A stretch of 64,000 nt of DNA from positions 2,945,501 to 3,009,500 of the forward strand of contig NZ_CP081966.1 in the NCBI RefSeq assembly GCF_019823065.1, read 5' to 3'. The translations under genes were made by a program, and so were the position numbers. Positions 27,997 to 34,599 of this stretch are shown here, piece after piece (the first letter of the stretch is position 1; every line of letters begins with the position of its first letter). A model generated the notes under the pieces. It was given only the letters and a program-made list of their open reading frames with translations, had not been told where the DNA came from and searched no databases. This DNA comes from Pseudomonas mosselii. Its GTDB lineage: Bacteria > Pseudomonadota > Gammaproteobacteria > Pseudomonadales > Pseudomonadaceae.

Positions 27997-28301
27997 GCGG
28001 CACTCGATCGATCAGTAGCTGGCCACTGGGTTGATATTGGCGGCGCCGATTTCGTCGCTGGGACCGCAGGGTGGGTGGGACAAGGAGTTTTGCTTGCAAG
28101 GCAAGGAAGTGGGCATCTCTGATGTTCAGTACGGGACTCGGCTGCAGGGGAAGCTGTTGAGACTTCAACCAGTATGCGTTTCCCTGATTTGAGTCAGGCA
28201 GGGGCCGGGCTGACGATGCGGTATGCCTGATGCATCTTGTCATTTGCAATGGCTTAGGGCAGGGTCGATGCCATGGACCTATCTGCCAAAGGAACCGCAC
28301 C
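27997..28301. other. Intergenic region
   Basis: 305 bases with no supported gene. The aminotransferase ribosome-binding site AAAGGAACCGCACC is at its right edge. Confidence 0.5.
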
Positions 28302-29435
28302 ATGTCGAAGATCTATCCCGGTATCGATCCCGAAGGGCTGGTCGAGTATTCGGTGGTCTACACGGACCGCTCGCTCAACCACATGTCCCAGTCGTTTCAA
28401 GGTGTGATGAAGAACATTTCAACCACCTTGAAACAGGTCTACAACGCCCAGGCGGTTGCGGTGGTTCCGGGCAGTGGCACATTCGGCATGGAAGCGGTGG
28501 CACGGCAGTTTGCCACCGGCCAGCAATGCCTGGTGATACGCAACGGCTGGTTCAGTTATCGCTGGAGCCAGATCCTTGAAATGGGCAACATCCCGGCGGC
28601 CACAACGGTGCTGAAAGCCCGGCCGGTTGAGATGGGGCGACAGGCTGCCTACGCCCCGGCCCCACTGGACGAAGTGTTGGCGGCCATCGAGTCGCAGAAA
28701 CCGCAGATTGTCTTCGCCCCCCACGTTGAAACGTCATCAGGGATCATCCTGCCCGATGAGTACCTGCGGGCCGTGGGCGATGCCGTGCATGCGGTGGGTG
28801 GCCTGTTCGTCCTGGACTGCATCGCCTCAGGCGCGATCTGGGTTGATATGCACAAATGCGCGGTCGACCTGTTGATCAGCGCACCGCAGAAAGGCTGGAG
28901 CGCCTCACCTTGCTGCGCCCTGGTGATGTTCAGCGCCTTGGCCCTGGAGCGCATCGAATCGACGCAAAGCACCAGCTTCGCTTGCGACTTGAAGAAGTGG
29001 CTTCAGATCATGCAGGCCTATGAGCAGGGCGGCCACGCCTACCATGCGACCATGCCCAGCGATGCCCTGGCGCGGTTCAACGAAGTGATGAAAGAGACGC
29101 AAGCCTACGGTTTCGACAAGGTCTGCGACGAACAACAGGCCCTGGGTGATCGGGTGCGCGCAATGATGACCCGCAAAGGGATCAAGAGCGTGGCCGCAGT
29201 GGGCTTTCAGGCCCCTGGCGTGGTGGTGAGCTACACCGATGATGCCGATATCAAGACTGGTAAGAAGTTTGTCAGCCACGGCCTGCAGATTGCTGCCGGC
29301 GTGCCGTTGCAATGCGACGAGCCTGCCGACTTCCAGACCTTCCGCATCGGCCTGTTCGGGCTGGAAAAGCTGCACAATATCGAGCGTACGGTCAGCACCC
29401 TTGAGCAGGCGCTGGACGAGGTGATGGTTAACTAG
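28302..29435 (+). CDS. Class V PLP-dependent aminotransferase
   Basis: 377 residues, start MSKIYPGIDPEGLVEYSVVYTDRSLNHM. PLP-site features: the glycine-rich GSGTFGMEA, FAPHVETSSGI, DCIASGA, and SAPQKGWSA containing the Schiff-base lysine. It belongs to the alanine-glyoxylate/serine-pyruvate transaminase-like family. No neighbour indicates a pathway, so the amino acid pair is unknown. Confidence 0.88.
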   Translation: MSKIYPGIDPEGLVEYSVVYTDRSLNHMSQSFQGVMKNISTTLKQVYNAQAVAVVPGSGTFGMEAVARQFATGQQCLVIRNGWFSYRWSQILEMGNIPAATTVLKARPVEMGRQAAYAPAPLDEVLAAIESQKPQIVFAPHVETSSGIILPDEYLRAVGDAVHAVGGLFVLDCIASGAIWVDMHKCAVDLLISAPQKGWSASPCCALVMFSALALERIESTQSTSFACDLKKWLQIMQAYEQGGHAYHATMPSDALARFNEVMKETQAYGFDKVCDEQQALGDRVRAMMTRKGIKSVAAVGFQAPGVVVSYTDDADIKTGKKFVSHGLQIAAGVPLQCDEPADFQTFRIGLFGLEKLHNIERTVSTLEQALDEVMVN

Positions 29436-29457
29436 GCGCTCGGTGGGAGAACTTGCA

Positions 29458-30009
29458 ATGACAACAGACGATGCGAGGTCCCGATTCGAAGCCAAGCTTC
29501 TTCGTCCGCTAATGCCCGGTGATGACAGGTCGTGGGCGTTTGCAGTTCTTCCAAGGGATGCGAGTGAACGGCTTCCGCGGCGGGGAAGGACGTCCGTTGA
29601 CGGCACGATCAATGGGCATCCTTTCCGGGCAACCCTGGAACCCGATGGTCAGCTGAGCCATTGGCTGAAGGTCAGTAGCGATTTGCTCGATGCGGCAGAT
29701 GTGGTCGTTGGCGATATCGTTACCCTCGAACTAGTCCCGGTGAAGAAGGAGCCTGAGCCTGATATCCCAGCAGATTTAGAGGAAGCCCTGGCAAGCACAC
29801 CTGAGGCTCAAAAGGTTTGGAGCAGTACGACGACCCTCGCGCGGGTGGACTGGATCCACTGGATTACTTCAGCGAAGCAACTCAAGACGCGTGAAAAGCG
29901 AATAGGTGATGCCTGCGAGATGCTTGCGACCGGCAAGAAGGCGGTTTGCTGCTTCGACTCGTCCGGCTACTACAGCAAAGCATTTCGGGCGCCCGAGGCA
30001 GAAGATTGA
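29458..30009 (+). CDS. YdeI/OmdA-like protein with DUF1905 domain
   Basis: 183 residues from the ATG at 29458 (GGGAGAA upstream; a GTG at 29443 is possible). N-terminal DUF1905 half (FEAKLLRP...SWAFAVLPRDASERLPRRGRTSVDGTINGHPFRATLEPDG), C-terminal bacteriocin-protection/YdeI helical half (LASTPEAQKVWSSTTTLARVDWIHWITSAKQLKTREKRI). The family has been linked to antimicrobial tolerance; function here is unknown. Confidence 0.82.
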   Translation: MTTDDARSRFEAKLLRPLMPGDDRSWAFAVLPRDASERLPRRGRTSVDGTINGHPFRATLEPDGQLSHWLKVSSDLLDAADVVVGDIVTLELVPVKKEPEPDIPADLEEALASTPEAQKVWSSTTTLARVDWIHWITSAKQLKTREKRIGDACEMLATGKKAVCCFDSSGYYSKAFRAPEAED

Positions 30010-30211
30010 CCGTGGTGTAGCTCGGGAACATCCAGGGACGCAACCAGCCCTATGTTGACGACAAGAGAACACTTTTTATGTGCTCTGAATCGGATTTTCC
30101 CTCTTCTCTGTAGTCCGTTTCCGAAACATACTCCCACTGCCTTCCAGCCATTGCAGCAGCCCCATCAGCCATCTAGTCTCGCCAAGTCGCCGCAAAAATC
30201 GACGACACGGT
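30010..30211. other. Intergenic region before the structured leader
   Basis: No supported gene or repeat before the leader RNA that begins about 30213. Confidence 0.4.
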
Positions 30212-30212
30212 T

Positions 30213-30387
30213 TTGACAGACCGTCCCCTGATATACGGATCATGCGCAACGCTCTATGGCGGCTGTGCGTGGGGCACTTCGGTGCGCCGAGTTCCGATAT
30301 CCTCGGTCTGTCAACCCACGTACCGCTGCCACCCATTTGTTTGACAGCAGAGATGTGGTAGCTCCAGTCAGATATCGGAGCTTTATC
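30213..30387 (+). ncRNA. Candidate structured leader (riboregulator) of the DUF6124-type gene
   Basis: An 11-bp perfect inverted repeat (TTGACAGACCG at 30213-30223 with CGGTCTGTCAA at 30304-30314) closes an about 100-nt domain. Inside it, GATATACGG (30230-30238) can pair with CCGATATC (30294-30301), and GCAC-TTCG-GTGC (30274-30285) forms a UUCG-loop hairpin. CCGATATC can instead pair exactly with GATATCGG (30371-30378), which overlaps the Shine-Dalgarno GGAG (30377-30380) of the next gene. AGCTCC (30360-30365) also pairs with GGAGCT (30377-30382), and a second TTGACAG (30341-30347) competes for CTGTCAA. The pattern is that of a mutually exclusive switch. Existence as an RNA is not shown. Confidence 0.5.
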
Positions 30388-30624
30388 ATGTTAAAGATCG
30401 TCCCCGATCCACCGCTACACGACAAATACACCACCCACACCCTCGAAGACCTCCTGGTCCAGATCTCCGAGTACCTCGTCTGCGCCCTAACCGTCAGCCA
30501 GCAGACCGTCCTGCTCCACGCCAAACCGCCAGGCCAGGTCCTGACCCTCGCCGCCATGCACGAAATCGACAGCGCCCGCACCCTGGTGGAGGTGGCGCTG
30601 AGTCGCGTGCAATCCCGGCATTGA
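30388..30624 (+). CDS. Small DUF6124/DUF3077-type protein
   Basis: 78 residues, MLKIVPDPPLHDKYTTHTLEDLLVQISEYLVCALTVSQQTVLLHAKPPGQVL..., a family of small Pseudomonas proteins with many copies per genome and no known role. Start at 30388 with GGAG seven bases upstream. The 5' region carries the structured leader described above. Confidence 0.75.
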   Translation: MLKIVPDPPLHDKYTTHTLEDLLVQISEYLVCALTVSQQTVLLHAKPPGQVLTLAAMHEIDSARTLVEVALSRVQSRH

Positions 30625-30700
30625 TCTGGCGAGCCTGGGCTTGCATCTGATGTTCACCGATCAGGCCCCGCGCCGTTCGCGGGGCCGCAGGAGGAATGGT

Positions 30701-30997
30701 ATGGATAAGGAATTGCAAACCCCGCGCATCAGCAAGCTGGCAACCACTGGCGTCGGGCATTTCGGCGAGGCTGGAGAGGAGGGCGGTCAAGACCCGCTGT
30801 TCCGTGTTGTGGCGGGCCATTCGATGGACCATGCAGTTGAGCAGGCAACCGTGCTGATGTGTGCAGTGCACAAGATCAGCGATCTGGCGATGGCGGAGAC
30901 GGATCATCTGCCGACGTTGCTGACTGCCGTGCATTACCTCAGTGGCATGGCCAAGGCGTTGGCCCAGGATGTGAACCATGGGTTGATGGTTGGTTAG
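30701..30997 (+). CDS. Small DUF6124/DUF3077-type protein
   Basis: 98 residues, starting MDKELQTPRISKLATTGVGHFGEAG with AGGAGG upstream. The C-terminal half (MDHAVEQATVLMCAVHKISDLAMAETDHLPTLLTAVHYLSGMAKAL) matches the same helical family as the gene at 30388. Lies 76 bases after it and is followed by a REP palindrome. Function unknown. Confidence 0.72.
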   Translation: MDKELQTPRISKLATTGVGHFGEAGEEGGQDPLFRVVAGHSMDHAVEQATVLMCAVHKISDLAMAETDHLPTLLTAVHYLSGMAKALAQDVNHGLMVG

Positions 30998-31017
30998 ACC
31001 CCGGGGCCGCTTTGCGG

Positions 31018-31045
31018 CCCATCGCCGGCAAGCCGGCTCCCACAC
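31018..31045. repeat. REP-type palindrome
   Basis: GCGGCCCATCGCCGGCAAGC followed by CGGCTCCCACA: the CCGGCAAGCCGG core with the flanks typical of P. putida-group repetitive extragenic palindromes. Confidence 0.7.
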
Positions 31046-31105: not shown

Positions 31106-31158
31106 CCTTTGCCTTATGTTCAGGGCGAGAAACTGTCGCCCTGAACATAAGGCAAAGG
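31106..31158. repeat. Perfect 23-bp inverted repeat with 7-nt loop
   Basis: Left arm 31106-31128 begins CCTTTGCCTTATGTTC; right arm 31136-31158 is its exact reverse complement; the loop is GAAACTG. It has no T tract, so it is not a standard terminator, and it ends nine bases before an ATG at 31168. Confidence 0.9.
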
Positions 31159-31924: not shown

Positions 31925-33742
31925 ATGGCAAATCAGCTAACCCCTGGGGAACTCATTGTCGCCAAGGGAAAAGTTGCGAAAGTCAAACAGGTATTTAGTG
32001 ACAAAACGATAAGGGTAACAATTGTCGACTCTGGTGAAGTAATACTGGTGTCGGCGCGCGACATTCAGCGAATCCCTAGTGTTACGGCAATTAATGGTAG
32101 TGATCATGGGGAGGGTTTGAATGTCAATGATTACACCGTTGATCAACTTTCATTGGCAGCTGAGCGTTTTGAAATTATCAGAAAGTGGAAGGTTGAGGGA
32201 GGGGTAGTCACTAAGTACTGTTCTTTACTGGGTGTATCAAAGAGTTACTTCTATCGTTTGGCTAAAATTTTTGACGCTGACGTAGGCCCACTATCTTTAA
32301 TTGCGCAGACACGGGGTGTCAAGAAAGGCGTTACGAGACTGGATGAGTCGGTTGAGGTCATAATTTTCAAGGCTGCTAAAAAATTCAAGTCGAAAGGAGC
32401 CAGCTACAGCAAAGTGTGGAGCGAGGTGGATGTTGCATGTAAGGAGCAAGGTTTTTCATGCCCTTCCAAAGATACGGTATTGAGGCGTGTACGCTTAATC
32501 CTCTCAGAAAAAACAAGAATGAGAATTAAAGAAGGTCCTGATGCCGCGACGCAAGAATTTTCAGCTCGCCCGGGTAAAAAAAATCTTGAAAGGCCGCTGC
32601 AATGGGTACAGATGGATCACACCCTCGTCGATATAATTCTGTTGGCTGATGATCGCATAAATATTATTGGACGCCCGTGGCTGACAATTGTAATTGATGT
32701 CTATACCAGGGTTATTCTTGGTTACTATCTTAGCCTTTACGTCCCGTCTACTGTTTCAGTGGCTTGCGCTCTTAGTCATTCTGTCCTTCCTAAAGTAAAC
32801 TTTTCGGCAAGTGTTGGCTTGGATCCAGAAGACTACCCCTACTATGGAAAGCCTGAAGTCCTTCATATGGACAATGCCGCAGAGTTCACCAGCCCAAAAT
32901 TTAAAGTAGGGTGTGAATCTTTTGGGATTTCCCCCGAATACCGACCTGTAGGAAGAAAACATTTTGGCGGTCATGTTGAACGGCTGATAGGCACGTTCAT
33001 GACTACTAAGGTGCATTTCTTGCCGGGGACTACAATGTCAAATTCTGTTGCGCGCAGAGGACTTAACAGCGAAAGAAATGCAACCATGACCTTCTCTGAT
33101 TTTTTTCGCTGGTTCTCTCGCGAAGTAGTTGTCTATCACTCAACAGTTCATAGCGCATTAAAGTGTAGCCCGCGACAAGCGTGGACAAACTATTTCGCGC
33201 CCAACGGAGGGCTTCCTTACCCCCCGGCAGGCTTGAATTCCGAGCAATTAAAGATTTGGTTCATGCCTCAAGAAGACCGAAAAATTAATCCTGGTGGCAT
33301 TAATTTGCATGGCCAAGTTTATTGGGATCCTATATTGGGGTCTCATGTGGGGACTAGAAATGTCATAGTCAAATATGACCCGTACGATATGAATGTTGTA
33401 TGGGTGAAATTGGATGGCCAATTTTGCCCAATACACCTGTCTGACGTAACCGTTGAGGCTCCTACCTATGAGGAATATCGTGCCGGCAAGCTCTATCGTC
33501 ACCCAGTCCGCATCGGAGCCATAGATAGTGATGGCGGGTTAAAAGCCTACAGAGGGAAGCAAAAAATTGAAGAGGAAAGTAAAAAGTTAACGCAGAAGGA
33601 AAGACGCCGAGAGGCCGCTGAAAAAGTCTATACTGAGGCAAATCCAAATCCTAGAAGTAGTAGCTTTAACGCTGACAGGGAACATATCAAGCCAAATTAT
33701 TCAGCCTCTCCAAAAAAATTTCGACCTGGGGATGAGTCATGA
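31925..33742 (+). CDS. tniA: DDE transposase of the Tn7/Tn5053 group (TniA/TnsB-like)
   Basis: 605 residues, start at 31925 with GGAG about ten bases upstream. N-terminal HTH region, then the rve/DDE integrase core: first Asp in WVQMDHTLV, second in VLHMDNAAEF, Glu in GGHVERLIGTF, and a C-terminal Mu-type beta-barrel with IVKYDPYDMNVVWVKL. This is the strand-transferase of Tn5053/Tn7-like elements. It overlaps tniB by four bases. The codon use and base composition are strongly AT-shifted, consistent with recent acquisition. Confidence 0.92.
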   Translation: MANQLTPGELIVAKGKVAKVKQVFSDKTIRVTIVDSGEVILVSARDIQRIPSVTAINGSDHGEGLNVNDYTVDQLSLAAERFEIIRKWKVEGGVVTKYCSLLGVSKSYFYRLAKIFDADVGPLSLIAQTRGVKKGVTRLDESVEVIIFKAAKKFKSKGASYSKVWSEVDVACKEQGFSCPSKDTVLRRVRLILSEKTRMRIKEGPDAATQEFSARPGKKNLERPLQWVQMDHTLVDIILLADDRINIIGRPWLTIVIDVYTRVILGYYLSLYVPSTVSVACALSHSVLPKVNFSASVGLDPEDYPYYGKPEVLHMDNAAEFTSPKFKVGCESFGISPEYRPVGRKHFGGHVERLIGTFMTTKVHFLPGTTMSNSVARRGLNSERNATMTFSDFFRWFSREVVVYHSTVHSALKCSPRQAWTNYFAPNGGLPYPPAGLNSEQLKIWFMPQEDRKINPGGINLHGQVYWDPILGSHVGTRNVIVKYDPYDMNVVWVKLDGQFCPIHLSDVTVEAPTYEEYRAGKLYRHPVRIGAIDSDGGLKAYRGKQKIEEESKKLTQKERRREAAEKVYTEANPNPRSSSFNADREHIKPNYSASPKKFRPGDES

Positions 33743-34599
33743 GTGATGAGCACGTCCGGTCGGACATCAGAAAATATTTGTCTTCTAATATTGATACGCG
33801 AATAGCCTTAATTCATCAAGAAATATGGGTGAACAATAACTCTAGTGCAGCTGTTTTTCGCATGATGAATAATATCGCGGATGTACCAGATCGTATGAGT
33901 GCGCCTGCTTTGCTTGTGGTTGGCCCAGGTGGCTCTGGAAAGACGGCTATAATATCTAAGATTCCAAACCATGTAAAAAGGAGTGCAGGGTTGATTTTTG
34001 TCTCCTTGGCTGCATCCCCAGAAATAGATACCAAAAAAAGCCTTAAAGATGAGATAGCTTTAGCGCTCGGAATACCAGTTGGCTCTGGCTCAAGTCGCCG
34101 AAGTAGCTCTGACCTGCCAAGCGAGATTAGAGAGGTTATTAGGCTGAGGCAAATTTGGGGGCTGGTGATCGACGAGTTTCATGATGCACTGCTACGCTCG
34201 AAGCAAGAGCAGCGTTTTAACATGTCTATTCTTAAAAAGCTGCTCGGCCCTGAATATGGATTGAAACTATTTTGCTTTGGCACTGCTAGTGCGCGCAACG
34301 CACTTAAATCCAATTATGAATTTAAGAGACGTTTTCACGAAGTTGCTCTTGATGACTGGATAGAGAGTGAGGAGTTCAGGTCATTCCTCTTGGAGGTAGA
34401 GGAGTCCCTACCGCTAAAACAGCCATCACATTTGTACTCTGAGGAGATGGTAGGCACTATTTTATCTATGTCGAATGGGCGCATGGACAAAACACTCGAA
34501 TTGATAAGGGCGGCTGCCTGTTATGCCATAAAAATGGGGGGGGAGAAGGTGGATGTTGATATGCTGCGGCGAGCAAACAAGAATCCTTGGGGCTATTAG
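33739..34599 (+). CDS. tniB: AAA+ transposition regulator (TniB/TnsC-like)
   Basis: 286 residues. Walker A GPGGSGKTAI, Walker B GLVIDEFHD, arginine-rich sensor regions, all typical of the ATPase that activates TniA at a target chosen by TniQ. ATGA overlap with tniA at its start. No resolvase gene (tniR) is next to it. Confidence 0.9.
   Translation: MSDEHVRSDIRKYLSSNIDTRIALIHQEIWVNNNSSAAVFRMMNNIADVPDRMSAPALLVVGPGGSGKTAIISKIPNHVKRSAGLIFVSLAASPEIDTKKSLKDEIALALGIPVGSGSSRRSSSDLPSEIREVIRLRQIWGLVIDEFHDALLRSKQEQRFNMSILKKLLGPEYGLKLFCFGTASARNALKSNYEFKRRFHEVALDDWIESEEFRSFLLEVEESLPLKQPSHLYSEEMVGTILSMSNGRMDKTLELIRAAACYAIKMGGEKVDVDMLRRANKNPWGY

Follow-up and report, generated by a model that had tools for sequence, protein, structure and literature searches.

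The leader of a small two-gene operon in the window (the whole stretch of DNA analysed, 64,000 nucleotides of a Pseudomonas mosselii contig) is, judged by its sequence, a copy of the known phage-type C4 antisense RNA and not a new riboswitch. We put the probability at roughly 0.9 that it belongs to a chromosomal C4 cassette with the order promoter, a1/b1, C4, a2/b2, ORF1 and ORF2 (DUF3077), in which C4 represses ORF1 through b2 and of which there are many, mostly specific for their own gene. When the whole window was scanned against 4227 Rfam families, the C4 antisense RNA was the single match over its cut-off (75.4 bits, gathering threshold 45, E 6.5e-13). The sequence-only reading had raised the prospect of a new RNA class, and this match to a curated family disposes of it. 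A local search of 621 bases also found a candidate c4-a1b1 element at 39.9 bits (E 1.3e-8), which does not reach the gathering threshold of 46.7; among 18 paralogous loci, 6 have a match to this family over cut-off. The features of the cassette, all on the forward strand, are as follows.

30087..30172 (+), conserved block that opens the cassette, from blastn similarity and the alignment of own-genome paralogs
30173..30227 (+), candidate c4-a1b1 element (RF03163), 39.9 bits, E 1.3e-8
30213..30219 (+), a1 target TTGACAG, inside the candidate c4-a1b1 element
30230..30239 (+), b1, GATATACGGA, an imperfect second copy of the b target with one extra base relative to b'
30252..30336 (+), C4 antisense RNA (RF01695), 75.4 bits, model positions 1-87 of 87
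30293..30301 (+), b' guide TCCGATATC in the P3 loop, exact complement of 30371-30379
30308..30314 (+), a' guide CTGTCAA, in the single-stranded stretch that links P3 to P1; complementary without mismatch to 30213-30219 and to 30341-30347
30341..30347 (+), a2 target TTGACAG just 3' of C4, complement of a'
30371..30379 (+), b2 target GATATCGGA; it shares bases with the Shine-Dalgarno GGAG (30377-30380) that precedes the ATG at 30388
30388..30624 (+), ORF1, 78 aa, MLKIVPDPP..., a reading frame with relatives, the named ones in Pseudomonas
30701..30997 (+), ORF2, 98 aa, DUF3077 (PF11275), 37.3 bits against a cut-off of 21, in the same operon by position

The overlapping complementary segments that had been noticed from the letters alone were all recovered, and each has a counterpart in the C4 system. 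An exact 11-bp complement joins TTGACAGACCG (30213-30223) with CGGTCTGTCAA (30304-30314), and a perfect inverted repeat of at least 11 bp turned up in only 1 of 300 shuffles; what had been described as an 11-bp stem is the a1:a' antisense-target pairing, extended into the strands of two helices. The proposed rivalry of two segments for CTGTCAA is borne out by the two TTGACAG copies, either of which can pair with the single a' site. The segment said to be exactly complementary to the Shine-Dalgarno region is b', and the CCGATATC/GATATCGG pair is b':b2. Pairing energies are -17.6 kcal/mol for b and -8.4 kcal/mol for a. The combination of TTTGACAG and, after 14-34 nt, GATATCGGA, which represents a2 and b2 of this locus, has a single occurrence in the 6.3-Mb genome. 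Three viral contigs with an a2-b2-ATG pattern have no C4 and none of them aligns to the window; we take them as chance. The region folds better than its dinucleotide-shuffled versions (z -3.46; one of 200 did as well), and since the opposite strand does likewise (z -3.62; none of 200) the strand is not told by folding alone. Upstream of these segments, blastn similarity to copies at other genomic positions repeatedly begins at about 30087-30090, and the block up to 30172 is common to several own-genome paralogs in the alignment. This block carries GTTTCCGAAAC at 30117-30127 and probably holds the promoter or an operator; inspection by eye found no convincing promoter hexamers in it.

The fold itself is well supported by compensating change. 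Our own covariance model, built from 18 own-genome copies with that of the window included, found 90 matches spread over 80 sources; two of these matches were weak and lay on the opposite strand. In the alignment of 79 distinct rows, 96.3% of cells are paired and 17 of 27 pairs have changes on both sides, none of 500 shuffles matched the alignment on any of five measures, and sliding the partner by 1-3 columns lowered pairing to 30.6-45.0%; fitting the rows to the structure makes the pairing figures look better than they are, and the differences are large nonetheless. In the alignment of the window to the Rfam C4 model, the a' guide CTGTCAA is unpaired and CCGATATC is placed in the P3 loop as b'. 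The covariation that had been proposed as a check is present within the C4 fold, and it also links CCGATATC-type loops to the Shine-Dalgarno targets they pair with. The sequence-only reading was right in its central expectation, a structured regulatory RNA with competing segments that would control translation of a small gene present in many Pseudomonas copies.

The geometry of the cassette was followed over 70 loci, 19 from the window's own genome and 51 from a second genome (G049), with the start codon chosen by a ribosome-site rule. The start codon lies 46-57 nt past C4 in 65 of the 70. An a2 match scoring at least 13 ends 7-15 nt after C4 in 70/70 loci, the search being confined to 25 nt. 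When 150 nt past C4 were searched, the best b match ended 1-10 nt before the start codon in 53/70 loci; with the search for b2 set from 20 nt after C4 to the start codon, this was so for 56 of the 62 loci scoring at least 16. Family membership, fold, layout and a near-constant geometry can all be read from the sequences themselves.

On this layout we propose that a single transcript carries both the antisense RNA and its target. C4 would be cut from the leader, probably by RNase P at the 5' end if P1/P7 and Acinetobacter are a guide, and the a' linker and P3-loop b' of the released RNA, some 77 nt long on that analogy and acting in trans, would pair with a2 and b2. By the same analogy, pairing at b2 would hide the Shine-Dalgarno sequence of ORF1 and repress its translation, and ORF2 would be lowered too, via coupling or polarity. 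The a1/b1 region, as a second, upstream copy of the target, could hold or titrate C4. Release of C4 and blocking of the ribosome site are described for P1/P7 (PMC8198154, PMC12197685), and apparent processing of C4-like RNAs is reported from Acinetobacter (PMC5320573). Processing, repression, coupling, the role of a1/b1 and the roles of the proteins are what we infer for the Pseudomonas cassettes.

The gene behind the leader had been labelled DUF6124-type. This is right only in part: ORF1 itself gave no Pfam match at E <= 0.05, the ORF behind it is DUF3077, and of three scanned paralogous first ORFs that likewise have an N-terminal KIVPDPP one is DUF6124 over cut-off and two gave no match. AlphaFold2 predicts a two-helix hairpin for ORF1 (pLDDT 85.8) and two long helices for ORF2 (pLDDT 85.9); the fold search of the PDB returned nothing at E <= 0.001 for either (best E 0.67 and 1.0), a result that is uninformative for helical hairpins. 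In the second genome 51 first ORFs were picked and nine short or broken-looking ones excluded before the scan; of the 42 products scanned, 31 are DUF6124, two DUF3077 and two Bro-N, and at least seven gave no match. The two Bro-N cases (L168 and L197) have C4 directly before antirepressor-type genes, and the N-terminus of L197 is MIKVTPNPP-like as in DUF6124 genes, as though another gene had acquired the leader together with the first codons. Inspection by eye of the best-scoring C4 of each of 30 genomes of the genus showed that a good part precede small genes of other kinds; C4 thus does not go with DUF6124/DUF3077 exclusively. As to phenotype, an evolved, furfural-tolerant P. putida had gained a single base within a DUF3077 gene that is annotated as a pseudogene (PMC9630843), a possible link for the family.

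Among the best 79 of 253 named ORF1 relatives, 77 have C4 directly upstream. The two exceptions, L106 without C4 and L126 with an internally deleted C4, keep the ORF1 start and are natural C4-null alleles, from which it appears that loss of C4 is not obviously lethal. This speaks against the cassettes being type I toxin-antitoxin-like modules, a special case of the C4-cassette model in which ORF1 and ORF2 would be harmful if overproduced and C4 would serve as the RNA antitoxin. Such a reading would suit the small size of the ORFs (78 and 98 aa) and their control by a private antisense RNA covering the ribosome site, and the P1 C4 operon holds Icd, an inhibitor of host division (PMC8198154, PMC11897509); the predicted helical hairpin of ORF1, with no informative PDB match, does not help it. 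We regard it as unlikely, a toxin-like role of ORF1/ORF2 being possible but unsupported.

C4 cassettes are numerous in the genus. The window's own genome has 19 C4 matches, all over cut-off, together with 12 DUF3077 and 3 DUF6124 matches. As read from the positions, 11 of these 15 protein matches follow a same-strand C4 at a distance of no more than 800 nt, and they belong to 11 different C4s of the 19; the model search found no C4 in the surroundings of the remaining four. Among 59 genomes of the genus, C4 was matched in 54 and over cut-off in 53, with a median of 17 matches per genome and at least 10 in 37/59, and one genome reached 55 matches, 52 of them over cut-off on fuller scoring. DUF6124 was present in 47/59 and DUF3077 in 45/59. 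Among 115 genomes of the order, the window's own included, C4 was found in 15 (the other 14 having 1-6 copies) and DUF3077 in two; the expansion of C4 along with these proteins is thus a feature of the genus in the sample studied. The C4 loci of other genera (L141-L163) were read by eye. Two loci titled Pantoea sp. Cy-639 (L069, L080) hold typical Pseudomonas cassettes, and the organism label may be wrong.

One of 72,556 plasmid records holds an ORF1 relative, with C4 before it, and a DUF6124 query matched none of these records. A search of 50,697 phage records with one DUF3077 query came back empty; a DUF6124 query matched a single record, of a prophage, with the gene lying at its end and C4 before the gene. 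Six viral contigs carry an ORF1 relative near their ends, with C4 upstream in five and the sixth beginning too late to tell.

These edge-of-prophage and viral-contig occurrences, the known presence of C4 in P1/P7 and the Bro-N, antirepressor-type domain in 2 of the 42 scanned proteins of the second genome could all be taken to mean that the copies are decayed prophage immunity, relics of P1-like prophages that have no present function. To the same side belong two own-genome loci (L009:2120-2512 and L026:4492-4578), where one C4 copy lies about 500 nt from the tmRNA gene and another less than 1.5 kb from a tRNA gene. Genes for tmRNA and tRNA often serve as integration sites, and the proximity could mark such sites. 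Against relics stand the compensating change that keeps both the fold and the guide-target pairing, and the correlation of C4 copy number with DUF6124 number over the 59 genomes (Spearman 0.88), though each of the two also rises with genome size (0.73 and 0.70 respectively). The surroundings point the same way: 70 ORFs around the 19 own copies were picked by a rule of length and codon composition and 63 were scanned, seven being left out, and they belong mostly to ordinary chromosomal families (read from the 25 commonest of 68 Pfam families), with no named phage structural protein or integrase among the 25 commonest of 35 PHROG families, which include three transposases and many unnamed families. 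With the empty DUF3077 search of the phage records added, we find decayed immunity improbable.

We scored a' and b' of each C4 against the target windows of every copy, with limits that were chosen by eye from the alignment of own-genome copies and then applied to the other sets, where the b target window starts two bases earlier; an earlier single duplex score over the whole guide was noisier (16/19 rows) and was replaced by the separate a and b scores. In the own genome, the own target was unbeaten in 18/19 rows and 19/19 columns, and none of 20,000 permutations reached the observed sum. For the second genome the set comprised the 52 C4s over cut-off, three below it being dropped, and the own target was best in 39/52 rows and 43/52 columns (0 of 5,000 permutations). 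Shifting the target window 80 nt into the gene abolished the excess (0/52 rows, 1/52 columns). As 13 of the 52 fit another target better, specificity is imperfect. Used alone, b placed the own target best in 19/52 rows and a in 34/52, ties counted; each site alone being weaker, specificity is carried by the pair of sites. Among the named ORF1 relatives (70 distinct of 78, window included) the own target was best in 37/70 rows; ties and near ties are expected there because orthologs share guides, and a' alone is common to many paralogs, with 7 distinct a' windows in the 70 distinct named loci. The upstream a1/b1 copy also fits its own C4 beyond permutation (16/19 rows in the own genome, 21/51 in the second, 0/5,000 permutations), and upstream b matches alone do so weakly (7/19 and 10/51 rows). 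Cognate pairing is therefore well beyond chance at the level of sequence, and each C4 would mostly recognise only its own gene.

The guides are correspondingly diverse, with 29 different a' 7-mers and 52 different b' 10-mers in the 52 C4s of the second genome when cut at a fixed offset. The riboswitch-like character attributed to the leader fails on this point, for the supposed switching strands are its most variable positions and have no conserved core, a pattern to be expected of a guide, not of a conserved ligand pocket. A cis-acting riboswitch or thermosensor, in which the leader would flip between two folds on ligand or temperature without any separate antisense RNA, could draw on the mutually exclusive cis pairings and on the lie of C4 and target on one strand, where they may pair within one transcript, yet the full-length C4 match, the lack of any known riboswitch class over cut-off in the 64-kb window and 52 distinct guides in 52 copies where a pocket should be conserved led us to reject it, along with a new RNA class, as very improbable.

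The C4 cassettes also seem to change guide and target together while staying in place. We compared the 77 named loci and the window by blastn of the flanks outside the cassette, from which the orthology of copies was judged; 83 pairs shared flanks matching over at least 500 nt, and these pairs share loci and so are non-independent, a 500-nt flank being a loose sign of the same address. The loop was the same in 29/83 pairs and different in 54/83, and cognate pairing beat crossed pairing in 33 of these 54. The division follows the size of the difference: for loops differing by at least four bases the cognate pairing was better in 27/27 pairs (10/10 where both flanks are shared), and for those differing by 1-3 bases in only 6/27. 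The clearest case of turnover is the window's own locus, where L067 (in a record titled Pseudomonas soli) aligns with 28230-30994 at 91.5% identity and both b' and b2 have changed with complementarity kept. We offer a wider reading tentatively, at somewhat less than even odds. Pseudomonas chromosomes would hold a large, self-diversifying and orthogonal antisense set, with tens of cassettes in a genome; every cassette would silence one operon, its own, of the DUF6124/DUF3077 type, and between species guide and target would be swapped together at fixed addresses. On this reading the specificity of phage immunity would have become a means of private on/off control, or a set of identity tags, in an expanding family of small proteins.

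A phage carries one C4. Tens of copies in many genomes of one genus set the Pseudomonas cassettes apart from P1/P7, with which they share the C4 fold, the a'/b' guides, a probable a1b1 upstream and an a2b2 over the ribosome site of the operon's first small gene (RF01695, RF03163). The P1 operon is c4-icd-ant1/2 (PMC8198154). Here, by the Pfam scan, an ORF1 without a match and DUF3077 stand in place of icd and ant, with no antirepressor family match, and we do not class the locus as an immI (c4-icd-ant) operon. The nearest parallel is the group 1 C4-like sRNAs of Acinetobacter baumannii, which likewise have many C4-type copies per chromosome (21 similar sequences), variable guides and apparent processing at a GG motif (PMC5320573); in the passages of that report their targets are left open, whereas in our genomes a target lies next to most C4s, and cognate pairing was measured across copies. 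The Sar antisense RNA of phage P22 also blocks translation of an antirepressor (PMC12197685), and we liken it by mode of action and not by kinship.

C4 and c4-a1b1 (PMC2864571) and the 21-copy expansion in A. baumannii (PMC5320573) were thus already published, and scale and specificity look to be the new aspects. In the open-access literature, searched by titles, starts of abstracts and passages with supplements outside that range, we found no paper joining C4 to DUF6124 or DUF3077 and no mention of DUF6124, DUF3077 being named in a single paper, that on furfural tolerance, so priority is not certain. The cassettes assign a likely regulator and mechanism to a Pseudomonas gene family that is very common and has been little studied. 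Should the private pairing hold in cells, one cytoplasm would naturally contain tens of antisense repressors insulated from each other; the divergence of RNA specificity could be tested on them directly, and they might supply orthogonal parts. The cassettes also make it testable why a phage immunity device reached dozens of chromosomal sites in one genus.

Some observations concern the locus itself. An ATG at 30256, inside C4, is in frame with ORF1 and opens a 122-aa ORF (30256-30624), so automatic annotation could place the gene start inside the C4 RNA. Just 3' of the cassette lies a repeat (31003-31044) which we take to be REP-like; a 43-bp piece of it is found inverted, at 97.7% identity, in the viral-contig locus L232. 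A perfect 23-bp inverted repeat with a 7-base spacer at 31106-31158 is possibly a terminator or a transposon-related element. Further 3' of ORF2, 31925-34599 holds a gene with Mu-type transposase C-terminal and integrase-core domains together with a TniB gene, presumably a Tn7/Tn5053-like transposition set.
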